Positions 7,661-57,697 of a DNA stretch of 64,000 nt are shown piece after piece. How positions within the stretch are numbered: the first letter of the stretch is position 1; each line of letters opens with the position of its first letter. Location of the stretch: positions 3,162,001-3,226,000 of the forward strand of contig NZ_LT629748.1 of assembly GCF_900105005.1 (NCBI RefSeq). The letters are read 5' to 3'. The stretch is from Halopseudomonas litoralis (GTDB taxonomy: Bacteria > Pseudomonadota > Gammaproteobacteria > Pseudomonadales > Pseudomonadaceae). Made by a program: the position numbers and the translations under genes. The notes below the pieces were generated by a model, which worked only from the letters and a program-made list of their open reading frames with translations, did not search any database and was not told where the DNA came from.

Positions 7661-7694
7661 GAGAAACTCCTGTTCTTATAATCTGGAGAATGGT

Positions 7695-9101
7695 TTATTC
7701 AGCGCTCATCAGCTCGTTCCAGTAGAGCCACCAGTGCCATTGAGTATCGTCCTTGGTAAACCCTTCATTGACGATTCCCGGTCCGGGCCAGCCTTCAGGC
7801 TTGCCTGTTTCATACACGGCCTGATACTTCAAGGTCATGTGCTTGCCCATGGCGCCCTTGGCTGACAGCGTCATGTGCGGCCAGGTATCCGAATCGTCCT
7901 GCTCGACCATGCCGGAGGTGCCGAACAGTTGGATGGTCTGTTTGAGCATCTTCTCGCGCAGCTCTTCCGGCGCGTCCTTTTCAGCGAAGATCCAGTTGCA
8001 GAACTCCAGCTTGTTCGGGCCTCGGGGGATGTAGGTGTGCAACGTCATCGAGCCAACAACCGAACCATCTGGTTGCGGGATATAGACGAAACCAAACAGG
8101 ATATTCGGGAACATTCCGCCAACCTGCGGGGGCATCGTGGTCAGAACTTTGAGCTGATCCTCCGACAGGTTGCGTGCCAACTGCTCGACCATGTCCTTGG
8201 TCATGCCGGCTGGCGGCAATGCATTGAGCTTTTCCTGAATGCTCAGATCGTCAGGCTCCAGACCGGTCAGGCGACGGATCTTGCGCGCCTGGTCAATACA
8301 GCGCAGCGCGTGGCCGTGGGGAGAACTTATCTCGACGCCGTACATTTCGGGGGTCAGATCCGGCTCATCGCTCTCTTCCGCAGCGGCGTCGCCCTTCTTG
8401 GCGTAGTTACCTACCTCACCAAGCCAGCGGTGCAGCGTCAGCGTGTGGAAACCGTCTGCAGCTGACTGCTCGCCAGCGGTCTTCCAATTGGCATTGACTA
8501 TGAAACGCTGCGGTGGCCCAAGCACTTCCATGCCTTTGTCGCTGCGCAGGAAGAGAATGTCGTAGTACCACTTGGCATCGCCGAGAAACTCGTCGAACGA
8601 AGGACCGTCAATATTCCAGGTCGCGAAGATCAAGCCGCCATAGAGGACTGAGCGGGCTTTTTTCAGGCCAAGCTCGGATTCTGGAAGAATGCTGCCGTGC
8701 ATGCACTCACGCTTCACAGGGGAGCCGATAAAGTCGCCGTTCGGGCGGAAAGCCCAGCCGTGATAGATGCACTTGTGGATCTGGGCATTACCACAGTCGG
8801 TCAGCGCCACGCGCATGCCCCGGTGCGGACAGACATTAAGGGATACGTGAATGTCATTGTTTTTGTCGCGTGTAACAATGACAGAGTCGCCCCCTATATC
8901 GCGAACCATGAAATCGTTGACATTGGGAATCTCGGATTCGTGACCTAGCAATACCCAGGTCTTCCCGAAAATCTTTTCCATTTCCATCTGATAGATTTCC
9001 GGGTCCGATAGCACGCGCATCTGCACTTCACGAGTGTCAGGATAAATCAGGTCGGAAATCTTGGTGCCATCAGAAAGCACCTGGCTGGTTTTAGTAAGCA
9101 T
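7695..9101 (-). CDS. ditA1: Ring-hydroxylating dioxygenase, alpha subunit (Rieske non-haem iron)
   Basis: A 468-residue catalytic subunit. The Rieske [2Fe-2S] ligands are C91 and H93 (CPHRG) and C111 and H114 (CIYHGW). The mononuclear iron site appears as D216-x2-H219-x4-H224 (ADGFHTLTLH). The enzyme would insert O2 into an aromatic ring to give a cis-dihydrodiol; in the dit pathway the substrate is 7-oxodehydroabietate. The gene precedes the beta gene and has a 175-bp upstream gap with an operator-like repeat, so it likely has its own promoter. The upstream region is AT-rich compared with the coding sequence. Confidence 0.92.
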   Translation of the reverse strand: MLTKTSQVLSDGTKISDLIYPDTREVQMRVLSDPEIYQMEMEKIFGKTWVLLGHESEIPNVNDFMVRDIGGDSVIVTRDKNNDIHVSLNVCPHRGMRVALTDCGNAQIHKCIYHGWAFRPNGDFIGSPVKRECMHGSILPESELGLKKARSVLYGGLIFATWNIDGPSFDEFLGDAKWYYDILFLRSDKGMEVLGPPQRFIVNANWKTAGEQSAADGFHTLTLHRWLGEVGNYAKKGDAAAEESDEPDLTPEMYGVEISSPHGHALRCIDQARKIRRLTGLEPDDLSIQEKLNALPPAGMTKDMVEQLARNLSEDQLKVLTTMPPQVGGMFPNILFGFVYIPQPDGSVVGSMTLHTYIPRGPNKLEFCNWIFAEKDAPEELREKMLKQTIQLFGTSGMVEQDDSDTWPHMTLSAKGAMGKHMTLKYQAVYETGKPEGWPGPGIVNEGFTKDDTQWHWWLYWNELMSAE

Positions 9102-10275: not shown

Positions 10276-10303
10276 GACAGCAATCTCCAGCCCATTAAGT
10301 CAT

Positions 10304-11536: not shown

Positions 11537-11538
11537 GC

Positions 11539-12729: not shown

Positions 12730-12732
12730 GGG

Positions 12733-13524: not shown

Positions 13525-13579
13525 TTTTAAGGTTCCTCTTCGGCGCAGGGATCACGGGATTCCAGATTTACGCCCTTAT

Positions 13580-13597
13580 AATGGCCTGCCGACCATT
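13580..13597. promoter_or_regulatory. Operator-like repeat upstream of the IclR gene
   Basis: AATGG (13580-13584) and CCATT (13593-13597) are inverted around CCTGCCGA, about 60-70 bp upstream of the IclR start. The right arm continues as CCATTCTATATCAA, matching 13 of 14 bases of one arm of the TetR operator at 3435. It may be an autoregulatory IclR site or a TetR half site. Confidence 0.35.
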
Positions 13598-13630
13598 CTA
13601 TATCAAGAATTGCATTTTTTAATCGAATTT

Positions 13631-15220: not shown

Positions 15221-15253
15221 GGTTGCCTCTTGTCAGGGGACTGGGGCGCAAAG

Positions 15254-16138
15254 CTAAGTAGCGGGATGACCCAGCCGTCCCGATTGTCGTGCTGTGGCAA
15301 GGATACGCTGTGGGCCCACTTCATTTCGCAGTATCCCGACGCCTTCGATGTGTGCCTCCAATACATCGCCAGACTGGAGAAAACGTCCGGTCTCCAGCCC
15401 AACTCCGTGTGTCGATCCCGTGAACACCAGGTCCCCCGGCCGCAGGGTGATGCGCGCGTCAAGGTAATTCAGTAGCTCATCGACCGCGAAGATCATCTCC
15501 CGGGTGTTGTCCTGCTGGCGAACCTCGCCGTTGATGGTCATGCGCATATCCAGCTGCGGCTGACCACCGCCGCCCAGCTGATCAAGCGTGGCAATCCATG
15601 GCCCGACCGGTGTCGTGCCATCCATGCCTTTCTGGGTGAACAGATCCAGCCGCCCCAGCGCACGGCCCGCATCTCGCGCGCTGATATCGTTGCCGACGGT
15701 ATAACCCATCACGCAGGACGACGCTGCAACGGCGTCGCCAAGCGGCTTGCCAATCACCGCCACCAGCTCGATCTCATAATCCAGCTCGCCCGTCATCGCT
15801 GGATAGGAAATCGCCCCGTGGGGATCGACAATCGCAGAGTCCGGTTTGATATAGGCAAGAGGATGAGGAGGCGCGGCACTGCCCAGGCGAGTCAGGTGCG
15901 ACAAATAATTGAGCCCGACCCCGAATATACGGGCGCCGGGCTCAACGGGCGCTACCAGGCGAAACGTATCTGACTCGAGCGTTGTGGCCGACAGATCGAG
16001 CGCCGCAATACTGCCGGTGTTGACCTTGCCTGCCCAATGGGAGAACGGGGCATTGATGCGCTGGCCGGTGCCGGTATCAGGATGCAAAAGAACCCAGAAC
16101 CGCGCTCCCGTCGCATCTTCTACCCGAGCCAGGCGCAT
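15254..16138 (-). CDS. FAH-family hydrolase/decarboxylase (ditD position)
   Basis: A 294-residue FAH-domain protein. It has the metal motif ELDYEIELVAVIG, GYTVGNDISARDAG, and a VFTGSTHGVGLETGRFL tail. It likely acts on the ring-cleavage product formed by the extradiol dioxygenase, which is encoded 2 nt upstream; its ribosome site GAAGG lies inside the end of that gene. By eye it is a paralogue of the FAH protein at 184 and differs from the longer one at 9277. Confidence 0.88.
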   Translation of the reverse strand: MRLARVEDATGARFWVLLHPDTGTGQRINAPFSHWAGKVNTGSIAALDLSATTLESDTFRLVAPVEPGARIFGVGLNYLSHLTRLGSAAPPHPLAYIKPDSAIVDPHGAISYPAMTGELDYEIELVAVIGKPLGDAVAASSCVMGYTVGNDISARDAGRALGRLDLFTQKGMDGTTPVGPWIATLDQLGGGGQPQLDMRMTINGEVRQQDNTREMIFAVDELLNYLDARITLRPGDLVFTGSTHGVGLETGRFLQSGDVLEAHIEGVGILRNEVGPQRILATARQSGRLGHPAT

Positions 16139-16140
16139 TT

Positions 16141-17082
16141 CTAGCCCTTCTTGGCGGTGAATTCCGGATCGCCAACCTCTTCCGGGGTTTTGACGCTAGG
16201 CCCCAGAATCGGGCCCACCAGCTCGTGGCCCCACACGCTCATCTTCTCCGGATTCAGCTCGAACCCATCGTCATGCCATGGTTCACTTTCAGCGATGCAC
16301 TCAAAGGCGAAGCCTGACGGATTAAAGTGGTAGAACGAAACATGTGGGTCCTGGGAATGCTGACCCAGTGTCATCATCATCTGCAGCTCGCGCTTCTTCA
16401 CGATATCGTAGGTCTCGCCCACATCACGCAGGCTGCCGACGAACATGCCGACGTGTTGAATCCCCATACGGCCCGGAGCGTGTCCGTAGGCAATATCATG
16501 GCTGGTGGAGGTGTTGAGCTTGGAGCGGAAAAAGCCGGTCTTGCCCTTGCCCGCGCCCGAACCGTACCAGTGAAAGCCCATGATATTGATAAGGAAATGT
16601 TCCAGTTCCGGCGGAAACTCGGGAGTCATCAGCACGACGTGGCCAAGGCCTCTCTTGTCGGCCAAGTAACCGCCATGGCGGCGCCCAGGCACAAAAGAAT
16701 CGGGAAGCCATTTCTGCCCGTAGAACAGCTCATGCCGAAAGCCGACCGGGTCAAAGAAACGGATCAGCTCCTTGACGCCGCGCTTCTCGCACAGCTCCGC
16801 GTCGCCGACGGTAAACTCCACGCCAGCATCGCTAAATGTCTGGCAGGCTGCCTTGAACTCCATCCGCCCTTTGGCTTCCCAACCGATGTAGGCCAGCCGG
16901 TCAACTTTGCCAGGGTGGAAAGCAAAACGGTGGCGGCGATCATCGATACGAAAATACAACGAACCCGGATCGCTCTCCGGGTTTTGGCCTATCGCAAAAC
17001 CCATTACCGACGGGCCATAGTCGCGCCAGGCCTCAAGGTCAGTGGCTTCAAAGCCCATGTAACCCAGTCCAATAATATCCAT
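16141..17082 (-). CDS. ditC: Extradiol ring-cleavage dioxygenase (VOC, type I)
   Basis: A 313-residue two-domain vicinal-oxygen-chelate dioxygenase. The C-terminal domain carries the expected Fe(II) ligands: His in RGLGHVVLMT, His in MGIQHVGMFV and Glu in GFAFECIAES. The N-terminal domain is the non-catalytic repeat. The enzyme cleaves a catechol next to one hydroxyl; in the dit pathway it opens the diol produced by DitA and its dehydrogenase. GAGGA precedes the ATG. It sits 37 nt after the SDR gene and 2 nt before the FAH gene, in one operon. Confidence 0.92.
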   Translation of the reverse strand: MDIIGLGYMGFEATDLEAWRDYGPSVMGFAIGQNPESDPGSLYFRIDDRRHRFAFHPGKVDRLAYIGWEAKGRMEFKAACQTFSDAGVEFTVGDAELCEKRGVKELIRFFDPVGFRHELFYGQKWLPDSFVPGRRHGGYLADKRGLGHVVLMTPEFPPELEHFLINIMGFHWYGSGAGKGKTGFFRSKLNTSTSHDIAYGHAPGRMGIQHVGMFVGSLRDVGETYDIVKKRELQMMMTLGQHSQDPHVSFYHFNPSGFAFECIAESEPWHDDGFELNPEKMSVWGHELVGPILGPSVKTPEEVGDPEFTAKKG

Positions 17083-17119
17083 CTGCTTTTCCTCGTTCTA
17101 TCAGATGCCGGTGGATGGC

Positions 17120-17878
17120 TTATATAGCCAGCAATCCACCATCAATGACGATATCCGATCCGGTGATGAAGGACGCCTCATCGGATGCCAGGTAAACGGC
17201 CAGCGAGACAACCTCTTCGGGCTGTCCGGGCCTGTCCATCAGCACGCCGTCGAGCAGCGCGGCACGCGCTACCGGGTTTTCCATGAACGCGGCGGTACCC
17301 GGCGTGGCGACAAAACCAGGACTGATACTGATCGCACGAATGCCCGCGGGCGCGCCTTCGACGGCGAGTTGGCGGGTAAAGGAAACCACGGCTCCCTTGG
17401 CTGCCGAATGCGCCGAGATACCGGCTACTTTGGAGCCACCCCAGGCAGCGGTGGACGATACATTCAGAATCACCCCCTTGCGTTCCGCCAGATGATTCCA
17501 GGCGTACTTGGTGGTGTAGAAGATCAGATCCACTTCGTTGCGAATAGTGAAGTGCCAGTCTTCGATGGTCATATCCTGAACCGGCGCAAAACGTGCAGCA
17601 GATGCGTTGTTATACAGAACGTCAATCCGGCCATGTTCGGCTACGGCAGACTCGACCCAGGCCTTGGCCTGCTCATGGTCGCCAAGATCGACCGGCGCGT
17701 ACCCGTAGAGAGTGAACCCTTCCTGAGACAGCAGTTCAGCCGTCACCTTGTTTTCGGCTTCGTTGGTATCACAGCCAACCACGATCGCACCCTCACGGGC
17801 AAAACGCAGCGCTGCAACCCTGCCTTGCCCACCGCCCGTTCCGGTGATGAGCGCAACCTTGCCTTCCAGACGTCCCAT
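17120..17878 (-). CDS. SDR dehydrogenase with His at the catalytic Tyr position (ditB position)
   Basis: A 252-residue SDR: cofactor motif TGTGGGQGRVAA, NNASAARF, and FITGSDIVIDGG at the end. The active-site segment reads LNVSSTAAWGG ... ISAHSAAKGAVV, so His replaces the Tyr of YxxxK while Ser and Lys are kept; the codon is CAT. A subfamily of SDRs with HSAAKGA is known to me, so this is probably native rather than a defect. Its place before the ring-cleavage gene suggests cis-dihydrodiol dehydrogenase. GAGG precedes the ATG by 9 nt. Confidence 0.86.
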   Translation of the reverse strand: MGRLEGKVALITGTGGGQGRVAALRFAREGAIVVGCDTNEAENKVTAELLSQEGFTLYGYAPVDLGDHEQAKAWVESAVAEHGRIDVLYNNASAARFAPVQDMTIEDWHFTIRNEVDLIFYTTKYAWNHLAERKGVILNVSSTAAWGGSKVAGISAHSAAKGAVVSFTRQLAVEGAPAGIRAISISPGFVATPGTAAFMENPVARAALLDGVLMDRPGQPEEVVSLAVYLASDEASFITGSDIVIDGGLLAI

Positions 17879-17928
17879 AGCAATCTACCTCGTCAAAATA
17901 TTTTATTATTTGCTGGAGAGTACGATGC

Positions 17929-18150
17929 TCAGGGTTTGATTTCTTCCAGCCATAGGGCCTCGGCAGGACAGGCTTCGGCACCTTCACGCGCCGCCTCTTC
18001 CAACTCGGGCGTTACTTTGTCGTCTTCAAAGTAGACCAGGCCATCGGCATCAAGCTTGTAAACTTCTGGACAGATCGAAGCGCATAAGCCATACCCACAG
18101 CAGCGACCGCGATCAGCAACGGCACGGAAAACAACCTTATCTGAACTCAT
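17929..18150 (-). CDS. ditA3: 3Fe-4S-type ferredoxin of the dioxygenase
   Basis: A 73-residue ferredoxin. The cluster motif is RCCGYGLCASICP with a second CPAEAL near the C-terminus; spacing C-x2-Y-x2-C-x3-CP has Tyr where a fourth ligand would sit, so a [3Fe-4S] cluster is likely. DitA is known to use this unusual ferredoxin type instead of a Rieske ferredoxin. The start MSSDKVV is chosen from AGAGGA 7 nt upstream and from family length. The frame is open upstream, and an ATG at 18237 also has a good AAAGGG site; using it would add 29 atypical residues. First gene of the A3-B-C-D-E unit. Confidence 0.87.
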   Translation of the reverse strand: MSSDKVVFRAVADRGRCCGYGLCASICPEVYKLDADGLVYFEDDKVTPELEEAAREGAEACPAEALWLEEIKP

Positions 18151-35022: not shown

Positions 35023-35057
35023 CTGCACCAGGCAAAATAAGATATCCAAAGGTGCTT

Positions 35058-37298
35058 ATGAGTGAGTCAACGTTGCACGGCCTGCGTGTCGTCAGCCTGG
35101 GTTCAGGCATTGCGAGCGCTGCGGCGGGTTTGCACCTGTGCGAAGCAGGCGCCGAGGTGATTCTGGTCGAGCCGCCCGGCAATCCGGCTCGGAGACAGGA
35201 GGCGCTGTTCGCGGTGCTTAATCGGGGCAAGCGCAGTGTCACGCTGGATATCGATGTGCCGGACGGGCAGCAACAACTCGAACAGCTGCTGGCCGCCGCC
35301 GACGTATTCATTCACGAGTTCACCTCCAAACAGGCCGCGACCCTGACGCTTGGCGATGCACAGCTGGCGGAGCGCTTTCCTGGCTTGATCGTTTCAGCCA
35401 TCACCGGCTGGCCAAAGAAGCATCCATTGGCCGAGGCAATGCCACGTGAAACTCTGGTGCTGGCGCGGCTGGGCCTGCTCGACGAACAGCCAGGCCACCG
35501 TGAAGGGCCGGTATTCGTACGCATGCCGTTTGCCAACTGGCTTGCAAGTTGGCTGTGTGTGGTTGGCGTAATGGCACGGTTGATCGCACGCGATCGGGAT
35601 GGTCAGGGCGGCAGCGCGCATACCAGTCTGGCCCAGGCCGCGCTTGTTCCGATGACCATGCATTGGAGCCGCGCCGAAAAGCCGACACCCGCATTCGCCA
35701 AGGGGCTGGATAAACACATCCCCATCCCACTGCATCAGTGCGCGGATGGTCGCTGGATTCACGTGCATTACTCGCCGGATAAATCCCCTTGGATGGCAGA
35801 CGCCATGGCTGAATTGGGCGAGGCGGAAGTTGCCCGGCTGAATGCACAGTGGCCACCCAGCCATGTGGCACCGAATTTCGGGGCTAACCGGGCCATTATT
35901 GCCACGCGATCCGCGCAGGAATGGGTCGAGCATTTCTGGCAGCATGATGTTTCCGCACAGATTGCCGCGCCGTTCGGTGACATCTATTTCGACGAGCAGG
36001 CGCGGCTAAATGGCTATGTCGTTGAAGTGGAGGACGCCACGCTCGGCAAGACGCTGCAGCCGGGGCCAGCCTGGAAGATCACACCACCGGCACGCATAGG
36101 TCGTTCCGCACCTCAACCTGGAGCAGACAACGGCATTGGCTTCGAGACCTCGCCAAAGCAGCGTCTGATTACGGATATGGCGCGCCAGGGCGATCCGTTG
36201 CCGCCCTTGCATGGCCTCAAGGTGCTCGATCTTGGCGCCTATCTGGCCGGGCCCTTCGCCTGCATGATGCTGGCCGATCTAGGTGCGGAGGTCATCAAGG
36301 TCGAAGCCCCAGCCGGCGATGCCATGCGTCGGCTGGAACGCATTTTCAGTGGCACTCAGCGCGGCAAGCTCGGCGTCGCGCTCAAACTTGGCGATGAGCT
36401 AAGTCAACCGGCGGTCGAGGCGCTGGTACGTTGGGCCGATGTGGTCCATCACAACATGCGCTTGCCGGCAGCGCGCAAGCTGCAGGTCGATTACGACTGC
36501 CTCAAGCTGATCAATCCGCAACTTCTCTACTGCCACGTCAGTGCTTATGGACCCACCGGGCCACGTGCGGATTGGCCCGGCTTCGACCAGCTGATGCAGG
36601 CCTCCTGCGGCTGGGAAGTAGAACAGGGCGGCGCCGGCCAACCGCCGATGTGGCTGCGTTTTGGCGTTGGTGATTTCTTTGCGGGGCTTTCTTCGCTATA
36701 CGTTCTGCTATTGGGTCTTTACCAGCGGGCGCGGACCGGCGAAGGGCAAATGGTAAACGCGTCGCTGCTTGGCGCCACATTACTCACCATGAGCGAGGCG
36801 GTCGCCCGCGAGGATGGCAGCGTCACGCCAATAGCGCACCTGGATGCCACCCAGACCGGTCTGTGCGACACGCACCGGCTGTATTGTTGTAGTGACGGCT
36901 GGGTCGCCGTGGCGGCACTGGCGCCCGAAGAAGCGCAGCGTTTCCACGCGTTAGCCGGCGCTGATCCCGAGGTGCATTTCGCCGCGCAAACCCAGACCGA
37001 GGCGCTGTTATCGCTGAGCGCGCATGATGTGCCCGCCGAAGCCGTTCTCGAAGCGCAGCTTGACCCCTTTCTCGACAACCCTGACCACGCCGCGGCTGGC
37101 TTGCATACCCGTTATCAACATGCGGAGTACGGCGAGCTGCAACAGATTGGCGCGTTCTGGGATTTCGGTGATCTGCCGTTGTCGCTGGATCGTCCGCCAC
37201 CGGCCCTCGGCCAGCACAGCCGCGAGGTGCTCGGCGGGCTTGGTATTGGCGATATTGAGCTGGACCGACTGGCTGCGGCCGGCGTTGTTCGGCTGTGA
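35058..37298 (+). CDS. Tandem-domain class III (CaiB/BaiF) CoA-transferase-like protein
   Basis: A 746-residue protein with two CoA-transferase family III domains in a row, about 1-340 and 385-746. Each has the beginning motif (GLRVVSLGSGIASAAAGLHL and GLKVLDLGAYLAGPFACMML) and the GADVFIHE/GEGQ pattern. In the usual enzyme a catalytic Asp lies in V-D-x-S-M-x-D-G. Here domain 1 reads AHTSLAQA (Gln193) and domain 2 VNASLLGA (Gly572), so the Asp is missing in both, by my alignment. ATG 35058 has AAAGG 5 nt upstream. It heads an operon with SDR, acyl-CoA dehydrogenase, kinase and SDR genes. It may not transfer CoA by the classical anhydride mechanism. Confidence 0.82.
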   Translation: MSESTLHGLRVVSLGSGIASAAAGLHLCEAGAEVILVEPPGNPARRQEALFAVLNRGKRSVTLDIDVPDGQQQLEQLLAAADVFIHEFTSKQAATLTLGDAQLAERFPGLIVSAITGWPKKHPLAEAMPRETLVLARLGLLDEQPGHREGPVFVRMPFANWLASWLCVVGVMARLIARDRDGQGGSAHTSLAQAALVPMTMHWSRAEKPTPAFAKGLDKHIPIPLHQCADGRWIHVHYSPDKSPWMADAMAELGEAEVARLNAQWPPSHVAPNFGANRAIIATRSAQEWVEHFWQHDVSAQIAAPFGDIYFDEQARLNGYVVEVEDATLGKTLQPGPAWKITPPARIGRSAPQPGADNGIGFETSPKQRLITDMARQGDPLPPLHGLKVLDLGAYLAGPFACMMLADLGAEVIKVEAPAGDAMRRLERIFSGTQRGKLGVALKLGDELSQPAVEALVRWADVVHHNMRLPAARKLQVDYDCLKLINPQLLYCHVSAYGPTGPRADWPGFDQLMQASCGWEVEQGGAGQPPMWLRFGVGDFFAGLSSLYVLLLGLYQRARTGEGQMVNASLLGATLLTMSEAVAREDGSVTPIAHLDATQTGLCDTHRLYCCSDGWVAVAALAPEEAQRFHALAGADPEVHFAAQTQTEALLSLSAHDVPAEAVLEAQLDPFLDNPDHAAAGLHTRYQHAEYGELQQIGAFWDFGDLPLSLDRPPPALGQHSREVLGGLGIGDIELDRLAAAGVVRL

Positions 37299-37433: not shown

Positions 37434-38171
37434 ATGAATGAATTGGATTTTAGCGGCAAGACGGTGCTGATAGTCGGCGGCTCCAGTGGCATCGGTAACG
37501 GCATCGCGCAGAGCTTTCGCCAGCGCGGCGCCGAGGTGCATGTCTGGGGAACCCGCCCGAGCGCACAGGATTACGCTGATTCGGTAGATTCGCGCCTCGA
37601 AGGACTGCACTACGCGCAAGTCGATGTCTCCGACGCTGACGTGATCGAGGCTGCGGTCGTGCCGTTCACTCGGCTCGATGTGTTGATTCAGGCGCAAGGT
37701 ACGGTGCTCTACGATCGTCAGGAATTTCTCACTGAAGGCTTCAAGAAAGTATTGGATATAAACCTCACAAGCCTGATGGTCTGCGCGCAGAAGTTTTTCG
37801 AGCTGCTCAAGGAATCACGTGGCGCGATGATTACGGTCAGCTCGGCGGCAGCCTTCCATTCGACCCGCGGCAATCCGGCCTACAACGCCTCCAAGACCGG
37901 GGCCTTTGGCCTGACCCGCACGCTTGGTGAGGCCTGGGCGCGCGATGGCATCCGGGTCAATGGCATCGCTCCGGGCCTGGTGGAGACCAAGCTCACCCGC
38001 GTCACCACTGAAAATCCCAAACGCCTCGAAGGTGCGCTACGTGCAATTCCACTGGGCCGCCTCGGCACCCCACAGGACATGGCCAACGTTGCGCTATTCC
38101 TGGCTTCGCCGCTGGCTGGCTACATGCTGGGCCAGACCTTGTTGGTCGATGGCGGCATGCTGCTCGCTTGA
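37434..38171 (+). CDS. Short-chain dehydrogenase/reductase
   Basis: A 245-residue SDR: VGGSSGIGNGIAQ, IQAQGTVL (a variant of the NAG motif), ITVSSAAAFHS, active-site YNASK, VNGIAPGLVETK and MLGQTLLVDGG. All catalytic residues are present. Preceded by AAGGA 12 nt before the ATG. It lies 135 nt after the CoA-transferase gene and 27 nt before the acyl-CoA dehydrogenase. Probably oxidises a hydroxyacid or hydroxyacyl-CoA intermediate. Confidence 0.9.
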   Translation: MNELDFSGKTVLIVGGSSGIGNGIAQSFRQRGAEVHVWGTRPSAQDYADSVDSRLEGLHYAQVDVSDADVIEAAVVPFTRLDVLIQAQGTVLYDRQEFLTEGFKKVLDINLTSLMVCAQKFFELLKESRGAMITVSSAAAFHSTRGNPAYNASKTGAFGLTRTLGEAWARDGIRVNGIAPGLVETKLTRVTTENPKRLEGALRAIPLGRLGTPQDMANVALFLASPLAGYMLGQTLLVDGGMLLA

Positions 38172-38198: not shown

Positions 38199-39500
38199 AT
38201 GAGCTGGGATTTCGAAACCGATCCGGACTTTCAAACCGAGCTGGACTGGATCGACCGCTTCGTTCGTGAGGAAGTCGAGCCGCTGGAGCATGTGCTGGGC
38301 AGCCCGTGGAACATTCATGATCCGCTATTCAAGCAGCTGGTGCGTCCACTACAGGCGCAGGTCCGGGCCCGCAAGCTCTGGGCGTGTCATCTGGGCCCTG
38401 AGTTGGGCGGGCCAGGTTATGGCCAGGTGCGCCTGGCGCTGATCAACGAAATTCTCGGCCGAGCACTGTTCGCGCCTATTGTCTTCGGCTGCCACGCGCC
38501 GGATTCGGGCAATGGCGAAATTCTCGCGCACTACGGTAGCGAAGAGCAGAAGCGCAAGTACCTCGAACCTTTGCTCGACAACGAGATAGTCTCCTGCTTC
38601 GCCATGACCGAGCCCCAAGGCGGCGCCGACCCCAGCGTGTTCACCACCGATGCCGTGCGCGACGGCAACGACTGGCTTATCAGCGGTGAGAAGTGGTTCG
38701 GCTCCAATGCACGATACGCGGCGTTTTTTATTGTCATGGCAGTGACCGACAAGAGCGTTTCGGTGCACAAGGGCACCACCATGTTTATCGTTCCGGCGAA
38801 TGCGTCGGGCGTGAGCATCGTGCGCAACGTCGGTATAGCCGACGATCCGGAGGCCACGCACGCCTACCTGCGTTTCGACAAGGTGCGGGTCTCGTCCAGC
38901 GACCTGCTCGGCGAGCCCGGCGAAGCCTTCGTCGTCGCCCAGGTGCGACTCGGTGGTGGTCGCGTGCATCACGCCATGCGCGTTATCGGGCAAGCACAAA
39001 GAGCGCTTGATGCATTGTGCGAGCGCGCCCTGTCGCGCACCACCCAAGGCGGCCTGCTGGCCGAAAAGCAGATGGTGCAGGAAAAAATCGCCGACTCCTG
39101 GATCGAGCTGGAGCAGTTCCGGTTGCTGGTGATGCGCACCGCCTGGCGCATCGACAAGTACCAGGACTATTTGCGCGTGCGTAAAGACATCGCAGCAGTA
39201 AAGGCAGCCATGCCTAAGGTGCTGCATGACATTGCCGCCCGCGCGCTGCATGTGCATGGCTCGATCGGTGTGTCTGAGGAGATGCCATTCGCCGGGTACA
39301 TTCTGCGTTCCTTCCAGATGGGCCTGGCGGACGGCCCGACTGAGGTACACAAGGTCACCGTGGCCAAACAAATACTACGGGACTATCAGCCAAGCGACAG
39401 TCTGTTTCCCAGCTACCACCGCCCGACTGCGGCAGCGCTGGCACGTGAGAAATATGCCGACGCGCTAGCGACACTGGAACAAAGCGGAGAGCAGCGGTGA
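38199..39500 (+). CDS. Acyl-CoA dehydrogenase, ACAD10/11 or LvaC-like
   Basis: A 433-residue flavoprotein: CFAMTEPQGGADPSVFTT (substrate and FAD binding), SGEKWFGSNARYA, and HVHGSIGVSEEMPFAGYILRSFQ near the C-terminus. The catalytic base of classical family members is Glu in YEGTSE; here the same position is Asp378 in ADGPTEVHK, the form I recall in ACAD10/11 and the levulinate enzyme LvaC. These enzymes remove phosphate from a phosphorylated 4-hydroxyacyl-CoA rather than simply desaturate it. Its stop overlaps the next gene's GTG start (GTGA), so it is coupled to a kinase-like gene. AGTAGGAGC precedes the ATG. Confidence 0.87.
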   Translation: MSWDFETDPDFQTELDWIDRFVREEVEPLEHVLGSPWNIHDPLFKQLVRPLQAQVRARKLWACHLGPELGGPGYGQVRLALINEILGRALFAPIVFGCHAPDSGNGEILAHYGSEEQKRKYLEPLLDNEIVSCFAMTEPQGGADPSVFTTDAVRDGNDWLISGEKWFGSNARYAAFFIVMAVTDKSVSVHKGTTMFIVPANASGVSIVRNVGIADDPEATHAYLRFDKVRVSSSDLLGEPGEAFVVAQVRLGGGRVHHAMRVIGQAQRALDALCERALSRTTQGGLLAEKQMVQEKIADSWIELEQFRLLVMRTAWRIDKYQDYLRVRKDIAAVKAAMPKVLHDIAARALHVHGSIGVSEEMPFAGYILRSFQMGLADGPTEVHKVTVAKQILRDYQPSDSLFPSYHRPTAAALAREKYADALATLEQSGEQR

Positions 39501-40549
39501 GCAGTCAGGCTGAGTGGCGCGAGCTGGTCGATCTCGACCGTTTGGGCGCCTGGATGGATGAGCGGAATCTTGCGTCCGGACCGCTGGAAAATGCCGTGCG
39601 GCTCACCGGCGGCACGCAGAATCTGTTGCTGCGCTTTCGCCGGGGCGATCATGAATTTGTGCTGCGTCGGCCATCGGCGGAATTACAGGAAGTAGGTGGC
39701 AAGACCATCGCACGCGAAGCCCGCATGCTGAACGCGCTGGCGGGCAGCCGGGTGCCGCACGCCGCATTGATCGCGGCCTGCGATGACGAGGCCGTTCTGG
39801 GGGCGAAGTTCTATCTAATGGAACCGGTAGATGGCTTCAATCCCAATTCTCCAGCCGGTTTGCCGATGCCCCATGCCGGCGACCTCGACATGCGCCGGCG
39901 CATGGGACTGGCCATGGTCGACGCGCTGCTTTGCCTTCATGAGCTGGATTATCGAGCCATCGGTCTCGGCGGCTTCGGGCGGCCCGACGGCTTTCATCAA
40001 CGGCAAGTGGCCCGCTGGCTGCACCAGCTTGAAAGCGTTGCCGGCTACGCCGGTTGGCCGGGCGCAGGCAGCCTTCCCGAGCTCGACCGGCTGGCACGCT
40101 GGCTGAATGATAACTGCCCGCAACAGTGCAGCCCAGGCATCCTGCACGGCGACTATCACCTGTCCAATGTAATGTTCAGTCGCAAGGGGCCGGAGCTTAG
40201 TGCGATCGTCGACTGGGAGCTGGCCACCATCGGCGACCCGCTACTGGATCTCGCCTGGTTGGTGGTGACATGGCCGGACGCCAGCGGCCACGGCGCCGGC
40301 ACGATTGAGGTGCATCCGTGGGAGGGGTTTCCTGCAGCGGACGAGCTGGTGGCGCGCTACGTGGCCGGTAGCTCTCGCAGCTTCGAAGCCTTCACCTGGT
40401 ATCTGGTGCTCGCGGCTTTCAAGCTTGGTATTTTTCTCGAAGTCAGCTACGCGCGGGCCTGCGCCGGCAAGGCGTCGATGGAACACGGTAGAAAACACCA
40501 CGCCTCGGCGCTGCGGCTATTTGAGGGCGCGCTGTCGCGGATCGAATAA
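39497..40549 (+). CDS. APH-family kinase, LvaA/ACAD10-like
   Basis: A 350-residue aminoglycoside-phosphotransferase-fold kinase. The catalytic loop is H217-G-D219-YHLS-N224 and the Mg site D239 (IVDWELATIGDPLLDLAW), both intact and almost the same as the kinase domain of ACAD10/11. With the LvaA precedent, it would phosphorylate a hydroxyl of an acyl-CoA, which the coupled acyl-CoA dehydrogenase then eliminates. It starts with GTG at 39497, overlapping the dehydrogenase stop by 4 nt. A small LvaB-type helper gene is not adjacent. Confidence 0.87.
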   Translation: MSSQAEWRELVDLDRLGAWMDERNLASGPLENAVRLTGGTQNLLLRFRRGDHEFVLRRPSAELQEVGGKTIAREARMLNALAGSRVPHAALIAACDDEAVLGAKFYLMEPVDGFNPNSPAGLPMPHAGDLDMRRRMGLAMVDALLCLHELDYRAIGLGGFGRPDGFHQRQVARWLHQLESVAGYAGWPGAGSLPELDRLARWLNDNCPQQCSPGILHGDYHLSNVMFSRKGPELSAIVDWELATIGDPLLDLAWLVVTWPDASGHGAGTIEVHPWEGFPAADELVARYVAGSSRSFEAFTWYLVLAAFKLGIFLEVSYARACAGKASMEHGRKHHASALRLFEGALSRIE

Positions 40550-40606: not shown

Positions 40607-41365
40607 ATGCAACTGGCAGACAAACGCATCATCGTGACAGGCGGCGCGCGCGGCATTGGCGCTGCTATCGTCGCGGCATACATCGCCGAGGGCGCCCATG
40701 TCATCAGTCTTGATGTCGACACCTCGCAAGACCCGGTGATGAGTGAGGGGGGCGGTTGGGCAAAAAGCCGGATCTGTGATATCTCCGATTCCGCGTCGGT
40801 GAACGAAGCGTTCGACTTCGCTATCGGTCAGTTGGGCGGGCTGGACGTGCTGGTCAATGCTGCCGGAATAGCGCCCAACGCCACTGCTGATGAAATCACC
40901 CTGGATGAGTGGGAACAAGTATTTGCGGTAAACACCCGCGGCACCTTTCTGACCAACCGCGCGGCGTTCAAGCGTATGAGACAAGGTGGCGGACGGATCA
41001 TCAATTTCGCCTCGGCCGCTGGCGTCGGTGGTCAGCCAGGCAAGGCGCACTATGCCGCCAGCAAGGGCGCGGTCTTGGCATGGACACGCACCGTCGCACG
41101 TGAGTGGGGCCCGCACGGCATTACCGTTAACGCCATCGCCCCGGCGATATGGACTCCGATGTATGACGCCACCCGCGCCAGCATGAGCGAGACCCAGCTT
41201 AAGCAGCACGATGCATTCATGGCCAGTCTGATTCCGCTTGGAGGGCAGCTTGGCGATGCCTCCTGTGATCTGGCACCGGTGCTGATCTTTCTCGCAGGCG
41301 AAGGGTCACGTTTCATAACCGGCCAGACCCTGATGATTGACGGTGGAATGTTGATGCTGAGTTGA
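40607..41365 (+). CDS. Short-chain dehydrogenase/reductase
   Basis: A 252-residue SDR with TGGARGIGAA, NAAGIAPN, INFASAAGVGG, YAASK and FITGQTLMIDGG. All catalytic residues present. It probably oxidises the 3-hydroxyacyl-CoA made by the kinase and dehydrogenase pair. It starts 57 nt after the kinase stop, with a GAGGGC stretch upstream of the ATG. The last gene of the operon; the terminator that follows has been split by an insertion sequence. Confidence 0.88.
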   Translation: MQLADKRIIVTGGARGIGAAIVAAYIAEGAHVISLDVDTSQDPVMSEGGGWAKSRICDISDSASVNEAFDFAIGQLGGLDVLVNAAGIAPNATADEITLDEWEQVFAVNTRGTFLTNRAAFKRMRQGGGRIINFASAAGVGGQPGKAHYAASKGAVLAWTRTVAREWGPHGITVNAIAPAIWTPMYDATRASMSETQLKQHDAFMASLIPLGGQLGDASCDLAPVLIFLAGEGSRFITGQTLMIDGGMLMLS

Positions 41366-41448: not shown

Positions 41449-42824
41449 GGGGGTGTCATAAATTTTGTGTTTGGGCATAACATGTTGCAGCAGAGGATGC
41501 ATGTATGCCGACCAAGAAGAAGCCGGGGCGTGAAACCCCGCGAGACCTACCAGCAATTCCCAAAGAGCTGATTGATCAGTTCGTCAATGGCCCGATGAGC
41601 GCTGAAGCCATTCAGGATGCCTCGATGGCGTTCAAGAAGGCGTTGATCGAGCGGGCCCTTGGTGCCGAGCTAGGGCATCACCTTGGCTACCCTGAAGGTG
41701 CTGAGCGCCCAGAGGGGGCGAGCAACCAGCGTAACGGCCGGAGCGGCAAGACAGTGCTCACCGATGATGGCCCGCTGCGTCTGGACATCCCCCGAGACCG
41801 CGACGGCAGCTTTGCCCCGATCCTGATTCCCAAGCATGAGCGCCGCTTTACCGGCTTTGACGACAAGATCATTGCCATGTATGCCCGAGGCATGACGGTT
41901 CGTGAAATCCGAGCCTTCCTGGCCGAGCAGTACGGAACCGATGTTTCTCATGACTTCATCAGTTCGGTTACCGATGCCGTATTGGAAGAGATTAGCGCTT
42001 GGCAGCAACGCCCCTTGGAGCCAATGTACCCGGTCATCTTTTTCGATGCCTTGAGGGTCAAAATTCGGGACGAGGGCCTGGTTCGCAATAAGGCCGTTTA
42101 CCTAGCGCTTGGGGTGTTACCGGACGGTACACGGGATATTCTGGGCATCTGGATCGAAACGACGGAGGGCGCCAAATTCTGGATGAAGGTGTTCAACGAT
42201 CTGAAGACCCGAGGCGTAGAAGATATATTGATCGCCGTGACTGACGGCCTGAAGGGCATACCTGAAGCCCTGAGTGCGGTGTTCCCGGATACCACCTTGC
42301 AGACCTGCATTGTACATCTGATCCGCAACAGCCTTGATTATGCAGGCTGGGACAAGCGCAGAGAGCTGGCCAAAGCTCTCAAGCCCATCTATCAGGCGCT
42401 CAACGCCGAGGTCGCAGCGCAGGCTTTGGACGCGTTTGAAGCTGGGCCATGGGGTAAGCAGTACCCGACGGTCACAGCAGCCTGGCGGCGTGCGTGGGAT
42501 AGGGTCATTCCGTTCTTTGTGTTCCCGCCCGCCATACGAAAGGTGATCTATACGACCAATGCGATTGAAAGCATCAACGCTCAGTTGCGTAAGATCATTA
42601 AAACCCGGGGCCACTTCCCAACGGATGAGGCCGCGACGAAGTTGATCTGGTTGGCGCTACGTAATATCACTGCCAACTGGGGTAACGCGGCACATGACTG
42701 GAAAGCCGCTATGAATCAGTTCGCGATCCTATACGAAGATCGCTTCACCAGGCCGACCTGGTAAGTGAGGGCCTACCTGATGGCAGGCCATTAACGGCCC
42801 GAACACAAAAAATCTGACAGTCCC
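41449..42824 (+). mobile_element. Intact IS256-family insertion sequence
   Basis: About 1376 bp, bounded by imperfect 28-bp terminal inverted repeats with 22 matches (left GGGGGTGTCATAAATTTTGT..., right reversed GGGACTGTCAGATTTTTTGT...). Flanked by an 8-bp direct repeat CTCTCCGG at 41441-41448 and 42825-42832, the target duplication expected for this family; the boundary is ambiguous by 1 bp because of C runs. One transposase gene fills it. The insertion lies inside the intrinsic terminator of the CoA-transferase operon. No cargo. Confidence 0.85.
41505..42764 (+). CDS. IS256-family transposase
   Basis: A 419-residue DDE transposase of the IS256 (Mutator-like) family. It shows FFDALRVKIRDEG (first Asp), IAVTDGLKGIPEAL (second Asp), CIVHLIRN and the C-terminal TTNAIESINAQLRKIIKTRGHFPT (Glu), so it looks active. 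An AGAGG site lies 8 nt before the ATG. Confidence 0.95.
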   Translation: MPTKKKPGRETPRDLPAIPKELIDQFVNGPMSAEAIQDASMAFKKALIERALGAELGHHLGYPEGAERPEGASNQRNGRSGKTVLTDDGPLRLDIPRDRDGSFAPILIPKHERRFTGFDDKIIAMYARGMTVREIRAFLAEQYGTDVSHDFISSVTDAVLEEISAWQQRPLEPMYPVIFFDALRVKIRDEGLVRNKAVYLALGVLPDGTRDILGIWIETTEGAKFWMKVFNDLKTRGVEDILIAVTDGLKGIPEALSAVFPDTTLQTCIVHLIRNSLDYAGWDKRRELAKALKPIYQALNAEVAAQALDAFEAGPWGKQYPTVTAAWRRAWDRVIPFFVFPPAIRKVIYTTNAIESINAQLRKIIKTRGHFPTDEAATKLIWLALRNITANWGNAAHDWKAAMNQFAILYEDRFTRPTW

Positions 42825-43128: not shown

Positions 43129-43299
43129 ATGGACCAGACGAAAGAGCCGTACACGGCCAGCTCACATTCCCGCGTTGTCATGTATCGATTGCCGGAAAGC
43201 TCAACGCTGGAAGTCATTCGTTTCTGTGAACAGCTCTTCCGTATCCTGCAGGGCGCTATAGCCAGCAACAAACAAACTCAGCCATCCAACAACAAATGA
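43129..43299 (+). CDS. 56-residue small protein, coupled to the next gene
   Basis: A 56-residue ORF with AAAGG 10 nt before the ATG; its stop overlaps the ATG of the next gene by 4 nt (ATGA), a strong sign of a real translated gene. It begins MDQTKEPYTASSHSRVVMYR and has a central stretch LEVIRFCEQLFRILQGAI that could form an amphipathic helix. No known family recognised. It lies in the unit led by a candidate TetR operator. Confidence 0.6.
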   Translation: MDQTKEPYTASSHSRVVMYRLPESSTLEVIRFCEQLFRILQGAIASNKQTQPSNNK

Positions 43300-44339
43300 G
43301 TAATGCCATGCGACATTTTAAAAAAATTCCTGAACGAGGCGACTTTGGTTTTCAGCAACTGGTAGGTCCTCACAAGGTAACCGGACCAGCGATGGCCGGC
43401 GAACGAGGTTTCTTCGGGCTGCAATTGAGCAAGAGCGCTCCCTTTGGCTCAGTGCGCGACGAAGAGGGCAACATCTACTCCTTCGTGCGCTCCATCCTGG
43501 CGCCCAACGGCACGCCCAACCCGACAAAGTTCATCTATCAGTCCAACCACATAGATGGCAAGCACATACGTATGGATCAGGAGCGGATGGCCGCCCAGGC
43601 GTTAACCCCACGGCCCGTCCAGACACTCGAAGGCGATACCGTACGCTGGTCCAGCCAGCCGGACGAACCAGGCAATGCCTGGGAAATCACCGCATCCAGC
43701 GAACGCTTGACTTGGAAGGAAGATGGGTTGTTTGAACTCGAAGGCAAGCTGATCGGCTCTGGCATGCAATGGTATATCCCGGGTGTAGAGTGGGGCACTT
43801 TCTATGTTTCCCAATTATGGGATCTCAAAGGGACATGCGAAGGGCGGCCGGTTAAAGGCGCGATGGCACTGGATCAGATGTACATGGCCGAAGGCGGTGC
43901 TATTCATTTCAAGAAAGACCTCGTTGTAAACAATAACATGCACGTTATCTGGTGGACATTCGTAACTATGTACAAGGATGGTACCTGGGATGCCGGATCC
44001 TTTATGGTCGGACACGAGAACCTGGGTTACGCCATTCTGATGAACGAGAAAGGTGAGATACGCACCACCACGGACATCGAAGGAACAGCGGTTCACAAGG
44101 ATGGAAGCTACTTCCTGGAATCGGCCCGCATCGTTCTCGAAGGCGAGGAGGAATGGGAATTCCTGCCTGACCCCAAGGGCGAAATGATCGATTTCGTAGG
44201 CGGCTTCCCGATCACAGCGCAGCAGGAAGGACGCTGGCGCCGCGTGGGCGACACCCGCGAGCCTGATCGCTGGTTGGCCTGGGGCGAATCGGATCGTCGT
44301 AACGGCTCCGCACGCAACGTGAGAGGTGCGGATCTATAA
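43296..44339 (+). CDS. Unrecognised lipocalin/AttH-CrtC-like protein
   Basis: A 347-residue protein with beta-rich segments (MQWYIPGVEWGTFYVSQLWDLKG, FHFKKDLVVNNNMHVIWWTFVTMY, VGHENLGYAILMNEKGE) that suggest paired lipocalin-like barrels, as in AttH/CrtC hydratases, but no definite family is claimed. The WYIPG-EW and HENLGYAI motifs are its most distinctive marks. No signal peptide. Coupled to the 56-residue ORF. It may act on a hydrophobic terpenoid. Confidence 0.55.
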   Translation: MSNAMRHFKKIPERGDFGFQQLVGPHKVTGPAMAGERGFFGLQLSKSAPFGSVRDEEGNIYSFVRSILAPNGTPNPTKFIYQSNHIDGKHIRMDQERMAAQALTPRPVQTLEGDTVRWSSQPDEPGNAWEITASSERLTWKEDGLFELEGKLIGSGMQWYIPGVEWGTFYVSQLWDLKGTCEGRPVKGAMALDQMYMAEGGAIHFKKDLVVNNNMHVIWWTFVTMYKDGTWDAGSFMVGHENLGYAILMNEKGEIRTTTDIEGTAVHKDGSYFLESARIVLEGEEEWEFLPDPKGEMIDFVGGFPITAQQEGRWRRVGDTREPDRWLAWGESDRRNGSARNVRGADL

Positions 44340-45852: not shown

Positions 45853-47130
45853 TCAATCCCAGATCGCATGAACGGTCTTCGCGCCACGCAGCTGCGCCCC
45901 GGCAATCTTCGGCGCAGGCATGTCCGGATCCAGCCGAATGTTGGGGAACAGATCGAGAATGCCGTTGATAGCGCTGTTCAACTCTACCTTGGCAACGAAC
46001 TGGCCAATGCACATGTGCGGGCCAAATCCGAATCCCAGCGCGGGACGCGCCTTACGATCCAGGTCGAAGGCGTCCGGATTGTCGAAGGCCTCGTCATCCC
46101 GGTTGGCGGAAATGACCATGCACTGGACCATTGAGCCTTTGGGCACCATAACGCCGCCAATCTCGACGTCTTTGGAGGCCTGACGAACCTTGAAGGTTGC
46201 GACCGGCTCGTAACGCACGGTTTCATCGATCAGCTTGCCGATCAGGCTGCGATCATTGCGGACTCTTTCCAGCAGCTCGGGACGCTCCAGCAGCAGCGTC
46301 ATCACCGAACTGAACGTTCGGGTAGTGGTTTCTCCCGCGGCGGGCAACAACGAGCGAACGAAGGTGGTCACCTCATGGTCGTCCAGTGCCCGACCCTCAT
46401 ATTCCGCATTGATCAGGCGGCTGATCAGATCATTACCTTGAGTATCCTCGGCACGCTTGCGGACGACGATCTCTTTGATCGCATCGTAAAGGCTTTTCAC
46501 CGCCTGGCCGGCCAGAGGACCATAGATTTTGGCCTTTTCCGGATCGATCTGGTTAGCCGCCACCAACGCCAGCGCCCAGCTGGCGTACTTCTTGAATTTT
46601 TCCGGATCGTCGGCCGGAAAACCCATCAGTGCATACATGGCGCGAATCGGAAAGTAGAGGCCGAAATCCATCAGATTGGCTTTCTTGTCTGCCACCATGG
46701 GCAGCAAGAACTCTTCCCGGATGACCCGATCAATCTCGGGTCGCCATTCATTTACGGTTTGCGGCATGAACACCGGCTGCAGCAGTGCGCGAGTACGGCG
46801 GTGCTGCTCGCCATCCATCGCCAGGATGATCAAGCCGTCGAAAAAGGCACCCAGTCCTTCGGCGATGAAACCGCTGGTGAAGGTGTCGGCATCGCGCAGT
46901 ACCGTCATCACGTCCTTGTATTTGAATAGCGTTACCGCACACTTGGCCGCCTTGGCGCCGGCATTGGTCGGCACCTTGAGGTAGGTGTCGACAAAGTCGC
47001 CCTGCATCACCGGTTCGTTGTGGCGCTTGTCCCGGCATAGGCCATGGATATCGACGTCCGAACCAAGATAGGTGTCCGAGACCGCGTGGTAGGCGGCTTC
47101 GATATCAAGTTCCTGAGCTGCGAGTGACAT
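45853..47130 (-). CDS. Cytochrome P450 (candidate DitQ/DitU-like)
   Basis: A 425-residue P450. The haem ligand is Cys374 in LGFGFGPHMCIGQFVAKVEL; the I helix reads LLPAAGETTTRTF and the K helix DETVRYE. It differs strongly from the P450cam-like enzyme at 23343. Abietane degraders carry CYP226 P450s (DitQ/DitU) for C7 oxidation; the context makes this a candidate, without alignment. AGGAG precedes the ATG. It lies 41 nt after the FAD enzyme and 50 nt before the SnoaL gene; no ferredoxin is adjacent. Confidence 0.92.
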   Translation of the reverse strand: MSLAAQELDIEAAYHAVSDTYLGSDVDIHGLCRDKRHNEPVMQGDFVDTYLKVPTNAGAKAAKCAVTLFKYKDVMTVLRDADTFTSGFIAEGLGAFFDGLIILAMDGEQHRRTRALLQPVFMPQTVNEWRPEIDRVIREEFLLPMVADKKANLMDFGLYFPIRAMYALMGFPADDPEKFKKYASWALALVAANQIDPEKAKIYGPLAGQAVKSLYDAIKEIVVRKRAEDTQGNDLISRLINAEYEGRALDDHEVTTFVRSLLPAAGETTTRTFSSVMTLLLERPELLERVRNDRSLIGKLIDETVRYEPVATFKVRQASKDVEIGGVMVPKGSMVQCMVISANRDDEAFDNPDAFDLDRKARPALGFGFGPHMCIGQFVAKVELNSAINGILDLFPNIRLDPDMPAPKIAGAQLRGAKTVHAIWD

Positions 47131-56323: not shown

Positions 56324-57697
56324 ATGAACATGGCCTTATCAGATAATGCCAGTGCCGACCAGTTGACGGAACAAAAGATACGTGGTTTCGTCGAAACGCT
56401 GCTGGGCGGGACCGTGGTCCGCACAGACCGGCTACCGCGCTGGCGACCTGCCTGGAATATGGACCTCCAACGTGGCGACGAAATACTCAAACTGCACATC
56501 CGCGGCGATCGGGGCGGCGACGTCAGCCCGTTTCCGGATGATCTGCGCCGCGAAGCAAATATTCTTGCGCTGATCGGTCAGCAGGGTGTTCCGGCACCGC
56601 ATATCTATGGATTCTGCGAAGACCCGCTGGCAATCGTCATGCAAGCCGTGCCCGGCACTAGAGATCTCTCTTCCGCCAGGGACGACGCCGAACGCCTGAG
56701 CCTGGCCAAGCAATACATAGACGCCATGGTCGCCATGCACCAGCTGCCACTGGATCGCTTTGTGGCCAAGGGAATCGAGCTGCCCGAGGGTGCCGAAGCC
56801 ATTTCGCTGGCCGGGCTTAACGCGTATTACCCGCTTTACGCACGCAATAAAACCCGTCCGCAGCCGCTGCTGGAATTCGCCCTGAACTGGCTGCGCCGCA
56901 ACGTTCCGCAGCATCGCACCAAGCCCAGCCTGGTGCAGTACGACTCGGGCCAATATCTGTTCGAGAACGGCAAGCTGACCACTCTCTATGATTTCGAGTT
57001 CGCGATGATCGGCGACCCGCTGGCCGACCTGGCATCAGCGCGGATGCGGGACAATTACGAACCACTCGGAGGCCCTTTCAAAGCGCTCTACGAATATTAC
57101 CAGCAGGTTAGCGGCGAACCGCCTGAACCCGACGTTGTGCGGTTTCATACCTTACTGTTCTCCACCGTCAGTACGATGCAGTTCTCCTCGACGGTCGCTA
57201 CGCCAAAACCGGGAGATCCCCACGATACCTATATTGAATTCGACATTGCGCTGCGCCGCGTAGTGGTCCACGCCCTGGCCGAAGCAATGGGCGTGGCAAT
57301 CGAGACGCCAGCCACCCCCGTCAAACCACAGGGACCCAACGCCGAACTGCTGAGCATGCTGAGTGATGCGGTGGAACAGGTCGAAGTGAATGATCCCTTC
57401 CAGAAGACCAAGCTGAACGCCGTGCGCAAGATCGTGGAATATCTAAGCAAGGCCGACGCCATGATGCTGGAGCTGCAAGCCCAGGACATGCGCGAAGCCG
57501 AAGCACTACTCGGCCAGCGCTTTGACCACCACCAGGAAATGGAGGCGGCGCTGGAAAGTTTCGTGACGGCAGCTAACGCCGAGCATGACCTGCCTCTGCT
57601 GGCACTTTTTGCCTCGCAGATTGAACGACGTGTCCAGGTGTTTGGCGGCACCGCTATTGGCGCCTCGGCCAGCCATATCGACCTTCCCCCCCTATGA
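56324..57697 (+). CDS. APH-fold kinase with divergent catalytic loop and helical C-terminus
   Basis: A 457-residue phosphotransferase-family protein. The Mg-binding DFEFAMIGDPLADLAS (Asp223) is intact, but the catalytic loop reads Q205-Y-D207-SGQY-L212 where the family has HGDxxxxN: the His and Asn are gone and the Asp is kept. Residues from about 340 form extra helices (SMLSDAVEQVEVNDPFQ..., ADAMMLELQAQDMREAEALLGQRF), about 110 residues beyond the kinase at 39497. This tail recalls the LvaB/DUF6285 helper in pattern only. GGAG precedes the ATG by 6 nt. Confidence 0.75.
   Translation: MNMALSDNASADQLTEQKIRGFVETLLGGTVVRTDRLPRWRPAWNMDLQRGDEILKLHIRGDRGGDVSPFPDDLRREANILALIGQQGVPAPHIYGFCEDPLAIVMQAVPGTRDLSSARDDAERLSLAKQYIDAMVAMHQLPLDRFVAKGIELPEGAEAISLAGLNAYYPLYARNKTRPQPLLEFALNWLRRNVPQHRTKPSLVQYDSGQYLFENGKLTTLYDFEFAMIGDPLADLASARMRDNYEPLGGPFKALYEYYQQVSGEPPEPDVVRFHTLLFSTVSTMQFSSTVATPKPGDPHDTYIEFDIALRRVVVHALAEAMGVAIETPATPVKPQGPNAELLSMLSDAVEQVEVNDPFQKTKLNAVRKIVEYLSKADAMMLELQAQDMREAEALLGQRFDHHQEMEAALESFVTAANAEHDLPLLALFASQIERRVQVFGGTAIGASASHIDLPPL

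Follow-up and report, generated by a model that had tools for sequence, protein, structure and literature searches.

Kinase and acyl-CoA dehydrogenase cassette in a resin-acid (dit) cluster of Halopseudomonas litoralis: candidate phosphorylation and elimination of a hydroxyacyl-CoA

In a stretch of 64,000 nucleotides of the Halopseudomonas litoralis genome (assembly GCF_900105005.1, contig NZ_LT629748.1, positions 3,162,001 to 3,226,000; this whole stretch is called the window), a gene for an acyl-CoA dehydrogenase (ACAD) with an aspartate at the site of the usual catalytic glutamate lies next to a gene for an APH-type kinase, which raises the question of what reaction the two proteins might carry out together. 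A preliminary description of this DNA likened the pair to LvaA/LvaC and proposed phosphorylation of a hydroxyacyl-CoA followed by elimination. Both open reading frames were found as described, on the plus strand with a 4-bp overlap and with a short-chain dehydrogenase/reductase (SDR) gene on either side. Beyond that description, the pair proved to be part of a five-gene block (CoA-transferase, SDR, ACAD, kinase, SDR; Table 1) and the surrounding cluster could be named as dit. The window represents a cluster for abietane diterpenoids (dit), with the pair inside its accessory cassette. With a probability of roughly 0.57, and by analogy to characterized enzymes, the pair would form the core of this cassette, in which a gamma-hydroxyacyl-CoA would be phosphorylated with ATP and the phosphate removed in an FAD-dependent elimination. 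Such kinase-ACAD chemistry has precedent in the breakdown of levulinate and of 4-hydroxy fatty acids.

The motif ADGPTEVHK of the window ACAD begins at residue 377, so that its aspartate is residue 378, and this Asp378 aligns with D753 of mouse ACAD11. Among other ACADs of the same genome, four (L006, L007, L008, L014) have Glu at this site and three (L009, L010, L011) have Ala or Gly there and Glu at the alternative site. The Glu site of isovaleryl-CoA dehydrogenase (IVD-254) is occupied by Gly254 in the window ACAD and by Gly in 77/77 sequences of its type. As Asp and Gly fill the two known base positions (MCAD-376 and IVD-254), neither holds a glutamate. The alignment comprised 130 sequences, namely 77 distinct window-type ACADs (that of the window included), 15 canonical ACAD11-like proteins and 38 other ACADs. 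In this alignment R250, R255, H257, H258, R261 and D378 of the window ACAD correspond to R626, R631, H633, H634, R637 and D753 of mouse ACAD11. The set of six residues is complete in all 77 window-type sequences, in 13 of the 15 canonical ACAD11-like proteins (the two exceptions carry Thr at the H633 position) and in none of the 38 other ACADs. According to the available text of PMC12440821, R626, H634 and R637 are absent from conventional ACADs and hold the 4-phosphate, and non-conservative changes at these residues were the most disruptive to the ACAD activity of ACAD10/11, with accumulation of the phospho-intermediate.

The kinase contains HGD at residues 217-219 and DWE at residues 239-241, the ACAD10/11-type motifs that had been reported as intact. 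Nine checked catalytic or CoA-contact positions match the ACAD11 kinase in all 61 distinct kinases compared, that of the window included; the Arg beside the alpha-C Glu (R86 in the published numbering) comes out at 84 by the present count, two lower. The best PDB matches of the kinase are 9o56, 3dxp and ACAD11. An instance with a swapped partner is found in P. capeferrum (L134:3231-8484), where an SDR (65%) and a kinase (55%) of the cassette type are located near an ACAD11-like ACAD. Since the same kinase type accompanies an ACAD11-like ACAD there, it is linked to the ACAD10/11 reaction, and its sequence makes the window protein a candidate hydroxyacyl-CoA kinase. NCBIfam has no specific model for either the window ACAD or the kinase, with the best matches far under the cut-off.

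Phylogenetic analysis placed the window-type ACADs in a clade of their own (support 100/100) that is sister to the ACAD11/4hr3 clade (joint support 100/97) in a tree that contained neither LvaC nor ACAD10. In this tree the window ACAD falls outside the ACAD10/11 clade and is not grouped with classical ACADs, so that, with no Glu at either known base position, the outcome named in the preliminary description as refuting it did not occur. Given its own sister clade, the window ACAD is not an orthologue of LvaC or ACAD11. Its nearest PDB sequences and folds are of the ACAD10/11 type, plus 4hr3. LvaC is missing from the tree because no lva-like operon was recognized in P. capeferrum or P. faucium, where a synteny search for LvaC yielded ACAD11-like genes; the reading frames of these two genomes were called by length alone, with antisense frames interfering.

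The conservation of the cassette was followed across loci. The protein searches scored the 7999 best-sharing candidates and each listed 120; the scan for ACAD loci matched 233 places and retained 79 loci, 73 of which served for the adjacency counts after six had been dropped for short flanks. At an ACAD identity of at least 73%, an SDR gene lies directly upstream and the kinase gene is adjacent in 51/51 loci, while a CoA-transferase is found upstream in 43 and a second SDR downstream in 46. Below 73%, an SDR is adjacent in 11/22 loci and the kinase in 4/22, and a kinase is located upstream or at most 4 kb downstream in 9/22. The tight ACAD-kinase pair thus characterizes the better-conserved members of the clade. 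With six residues kept in 77/77 sequences and the kinase adjacent in all 51 of these loci, the Asp motif is more than a chance substitution.

The terpenoid setting assumed in the preliminary description was borne out and could be sharpened to abietane diterpenoids. In P. abietaniphila BKME-9, an effluent isolate, the window DitA1 has a single strong Rieske match (85% identity; a further match reaches 27%), and it is 73% identical to a Rieske protein on chromosome 3 of P. xenovorans LB400. From 184 to 18034, the window genes match 452-470 kb of BKME-9 contig C23 collinearly, at 43-84% identity. The cassette itself stretches from 500.7 to about 507 kb on the same contig, about 41 kb from ditA1. 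In LB400, the genes for SDR, ACAD, kinase and SDR occupy 640-644 kb, with ditA1 about 35 kb away and no adjacent CoA-transferase. The LB400 dit cluster is said, in 2007 work by Smith et al., to lie on that replicon and to be induced by dehydroabietic acid. The extradiol dioxygenase of the window is probably DitC, a name that we infer. As described in the accessible part of PMC13063091, BKME-9 breaks down abietanes via dit genes with downstream steps that are still unclear, only DitQ and DitA of P. abietaniphila had been directly tied to specific resin-acid steps, and no product past the C-ring diol had been identified for the main route. Growth of P. fluorescens F113 on abietic acid and a 65-kb island with dit genes are reported in the text available for PMC3570484.

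Linkage between ACAD type and ditA1 was also visible at the level of genomes. A window-type ACAD (E<=1e-150) is held by 16 of 248 Pseudomonadaceae genomes. All eight genomes with an ACAD of at least 83% identity have ditA1, compared with 15 of the 240 others (Fisher p=1.5e-9, relatedness ignored); p remains at 2.2e-6, again ignoring relatedness, if the three such genomes from the genus of the window are removed and the other cells kept. The remaining eight ACADs show 58-66% identity, and one of these genomes (G195, with a 59% relative) has ditA1. Among 24 hand-picked ACAD-holding genomes, at least two of which overlap with the 248, a DitA1-like protein (66-97%) was detected in 12/12 with an ACAD of at least 77% and in 0/12 with an ACAD of 64-75%, so that dit-linked and non-dit ACADs separate at about 76% identity. 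In the tree, the dit-linked ACADs of Pseudomonas and of Burkholderiales/Rhodocyclaceae nest together (95/81; 100/97 with Azohydromonas), and the Caulobacter and Novosphingobium plasmid ACADs fall outside this group. Five plasmid records were listed with a DitA1-like protein of at least 54%: three (Massilia putida, Caulobacter sp. FWC26 and Novosphingobium resinovorum) carry the ACAD type at 55-77%, and the two Croceicoccus records are outside the best 40 rows for the ACAD. A class-level sample of 369 genomes gave four ACAD matches and one ditA1 match, with the genome of the window contributing one of each, a sampling too thin for this comparison.

The proposed reaction follows the sequence of steps described for ACAD10/11 in the available text of PMC11342911 and PMC12440821; for the cassette itself, sequence, residues, clade and linkage were established, and the reactions, their order and the substrate are inferred. 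The CoA-transferase would load a carboxylated ring fragment onto CoA, and an SDR would set the oxidation state of the oxygen gamma to the thioester. The gamma-hydroxyl would then be phosphorylated by the kinase with ATP. In the ACAD, Asp378 would take the alpha-proton, a hydride would pass from C3 to FAD, phosphate would be lost and the hydride returned, which would amount to a redox-neutral FAD cycle with R250, H258 and R261 holding the expelled phosphate. The 2-enoyl-CoA product could enter ordinary beta-oxidation. The abietane skeleton limits the possible substrates. If CoA is attached at C18 or C9, the alpha-carbons (C4 and C10) are quaternary and not deprotonatable; therefore the substrate would have to arise after A-ring opening, or carry CoA on the C7/C14 side chain. 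Two substrate ideas gave nothing firm: gamma-hydroxylated compounds with CoA at C18 or C9 lack an alpha-proton, and in 5-hydroxy compounds the hydroxyl would sit beta instead of gamma to an ester at C7 or C18.

Several observations weigh against a phosphate-eliminating pair serving diterpenoid breakdown. The identity between the window ACAD and ACAD11 is 38-40%, and no hydratase or thiolase is found among the cassette genes. In 13 of the 22 loci with an ACAD below 73% (L075, L085-L088, L090-L092, L095, L100 and L102-L104), the stretch covered shows no such kinase upstream or up to 4 kb downstream, and these clade members have all diagnostic residues. A search of ten genomes with a kinase-less locus (E<=1e-25) found a window-type kinase elsewhere in three (48-57%) and just distant kinases of 28-39% identity in seven; the idea that distant clade members always have their kinase elsewhere was rejected for these seven. 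Such members may use another kinase or serve another function. The clade is also present in genomes without ditA1, and 15 of the 23 ditA1 genomes are without an ACAD of at least 83% (one of them being G195), so dit clusters can do without the cassette. P450 homologues (E<=1e-120) occur in 24 of the 248 genomes and in all 23 that have ditA1, and the cassette is accordingly an extra on otherwise furnished dit clusters. Three genomes of the same genus illustrate this. One (G176) has a collinear dit cluster in which all five cassette genes are missing between the MFS transporter gene and gene 35, a second (G093) has none of the five and gene 35 in opposite orientation, and a third (G145) retains only the last SDR at the junction. 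Degeneration of the cassette-less clusters was not supported, because the P450 homologues are kept in 23/23 genomes and the three examined clusters are largely collinear.

The optional nature of the cassette and the occurrence of its ACAD clade in genomes without ditA1 would also be expected of a generic, levulinate-like cassette for 4-hydroxy or 4-oxo acids that merely resides in the dit island. In one variant, the A ring would yield 6-hydroxy-2-methylheptanoyl-CoA and, after beta-oxidation, 4-hydroxyvaleryl-CoA, the substrate of LvaA. This explanation is unlikely. As described above, dit-linked ACADs from Pseudomonas nest with those from Burkholderiales/Rhodocyclaceae and part from the non-dit ones at about 76% identity, and the genome of the window already owns an ACAD11-like ACAD (57% identity to mouse ACAD11) with an SDR and a kinase (L106:13933-17210, equal to G000:C1 916.9-920.2 kb). 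The 4-hydroxyvaleryl-CoA route would in addition require a Baeyer-Villiger step, and no such family was matched in the 37 window reading frames, a subset of all, that were scanned with Pfam. A plain alpha,beta-dehydrogenation in which Asp serves as the base on a ring-derived acyl-CoA and the kinase acts in a separate reaction would fit the ACAD fold and domains as well as the 13 kinase-less loci, but it appears quite improbable in view of the invariant R/H/R phosphate-binding residues, the adjacent kinase in every locus with an ACAD of at least 73% and, in the accessible part of PMC12440821, the inactivity of ACAD10/11 on the plain acyl-CoAs tried. Less probable still is phosphorylation by the kinase of a free diterpenoid alcohol, tertiary or secondary, with the phosphate eliminated by another protein such as gene 35 as in sterol side chains: AttH, kievitone hydratase and pericyclases also share the fold of gene 35, with 5-12% identity, gene 35 is present in dit clusters without the cassette, and the best solved matches of the kinase are those named above.

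Compared with known systems, the phosphate-eliminating cassette proposed here shares its checked catalytic and phosphate-binding residues and the kinase-ACAD pairing with the bifunctional mammalian ACAD10/11. It differs in its separate genes, its sister clade and the above identity to ACAD11; also, ADGP is followed by Thr in 66 of 77 window-type sequences, whereas Asp follows in 13 of 15 canonical ones. In the lva operon of Pseudomonas putida, the small subunit LvaB and the CoA ligase LvaE are encoded beside LvaA/LvaC. Like this operon, the cassette encodes kinase and ACAD separately, together with a reductase and a protein for CoA activation, but a CoA-transferase replaces the ligase, and gaps of 135, 27 and 57 bp plus one overlap leave no space inside it for a small LvaB-like gene. 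The likeness to LvaA/LvaC noted earlier holds in that the checked active-site residues agree with ACAD11, but the ACAD is not LvaC-like in a strict sense: it shares 38-40% with ACAD11, against 57% for the other, ACAD11-like ACAD of the genome. The cassette lies among the dit genes shared with BKME-9 and LB400, and the available dit literature text mentions no kinase/ACAD phosphorylation step; in four of these papers the word "phosphotransferase" does not occur. The preliminary description had known of no precedent in terpenoid degradation. Among the literature matches listed (titles and abstract starts, with Rand 2017 and the main dit publications outside this coverage), none places ACAD-type phosphate elimination in terpenoid catabolism. 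A kinase-based dehydration as such has been published for sterols, since the accessible part of PMC8449060 describes ATP-dependent dehydration of sterol side chains via a 25-hydroxysteroid kinase, with the lyase then unknown; a 25-phosphosteroid lyase appears in PDB titles, for example that of 9fzn. That system is likewise a two-step ATP-dependent dehydration of an isoprenoid-derived alcohol, but as far as the available text goes its sterol substrates are not CoA esters and its lyase is AttH-like, not an ACAD.

Table 1. Cassette genes and landmark dit-cluster genes in the window
Feature	Coordinates	Strand	Remarks
Fused double family-III CoA-transferase (CaiB type)	35052..37298	+	CoA_transf_3 over several stretches; first cassette gene
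SDR oxidoreductase	37434..38171	+	NCBIfam match; candidate 4-oxo/4-hydroxyacyl-CoA reductase
ACAD10/11-like acyl-CoA dehydrogenase ('ACAD31' type)	38199..39500	+	433 aa, ATG; PF00441/PF02770/PF02771; candidate FAD-dependent phosphate-eliminating enzyme
APH-type small-molecule kinase	39497..40549	+	350 aa, GTG; PF01636; candidate hydroxyacyl-CoA kinase
Second SDR	40607..41365	+	NCBIfam match; last cassette gene
Ring-hydroxylating dioxygenase alpha subunit, DitA1 orthologue	7695..9101	-	PF00355/PF00848
BphC-like extradiol dioxygenase	16141..17082	-	PF22632 + PF00903; 76% in BKME-9 cluster, 72% in LB400
Cytochrome P450 of dit cluster	45853..47130	-	PF00067
AttH-fold protein (gene 35)	43296..44339	+	No Pfam match; adjoins cassette

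Other features of the neighborhood were recorded as well. A Mutator-family transposase gene (41505-42764) directly follows the cassette; in the close relatives L027 and L029, a DUF1329-like gene occupies this place. On plasmid pSA2 of Novosphingobium resinovorum (L112:12806-15347), a divergent ACAD (55%) occurs with a divergent phosphotransferase in opposite orientation and a DitA1-like gene on the same plasmid. About 11 kb past the end of the window, a leucine/isovalerate-type module was found (L144:11599-18872 and L145:881-4488; G000:C1 3237.6-3250.5 kb) with genes for an oxoacid:ferredoxin oxidoreductase family member (indolepyruvate-ferredoxin-oxidoreductase family), an acyl-CoA dehydrogenase, a carboxyltransferase-like protein, a hydratase, an HMG-CoA lyase, a CoA-transferase and a thiolase, and parts of such a module are also found close to the cassette on plasmids of Massilia and Caulobacter. 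Because leucine-type modules are common, this is only a weak hint that the isopropyl-bearing piece would be released as 4-methyl-2-oxopentanoate. Gene 35 shows about 10% identity to proteins of the AttH/25-phosphosteroid-lyase fold, and a search of PDB sequences with its profile gives no match at E 10 or below. A second APH-type protein, APH44 (56324-57697, 457 aa), is encoded between SDR genes and is far from the ACAD10/11-type kinases; with its weak best PDB match (9o56, E 3.7e-6), it is a lead for a partner kinase of gene 35. As a tentative extension, a new phosphate-eliminating ACAD clade and its own kinase might perform an undescribed downstream step of tricyclic-diterpenoid breakdown, and gene 35 might add a second phosphate-based dehydration, in which case ATP-driven dehydration would be used more than once.

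The intact and mechanistically understood residues of the kinase/ACAD cassette offer a cheap and concrete test of one late step in resin-acid degradation, and the closely related dit clusters that either have or lack the cassette provide a natural comparison. The proposed reaction would extend the chemistry of LvaA/LvaC and ACAD10/11 beyond 4-hydroxy fatty acids, to a clade that is tied to polycyclic terpenoids.

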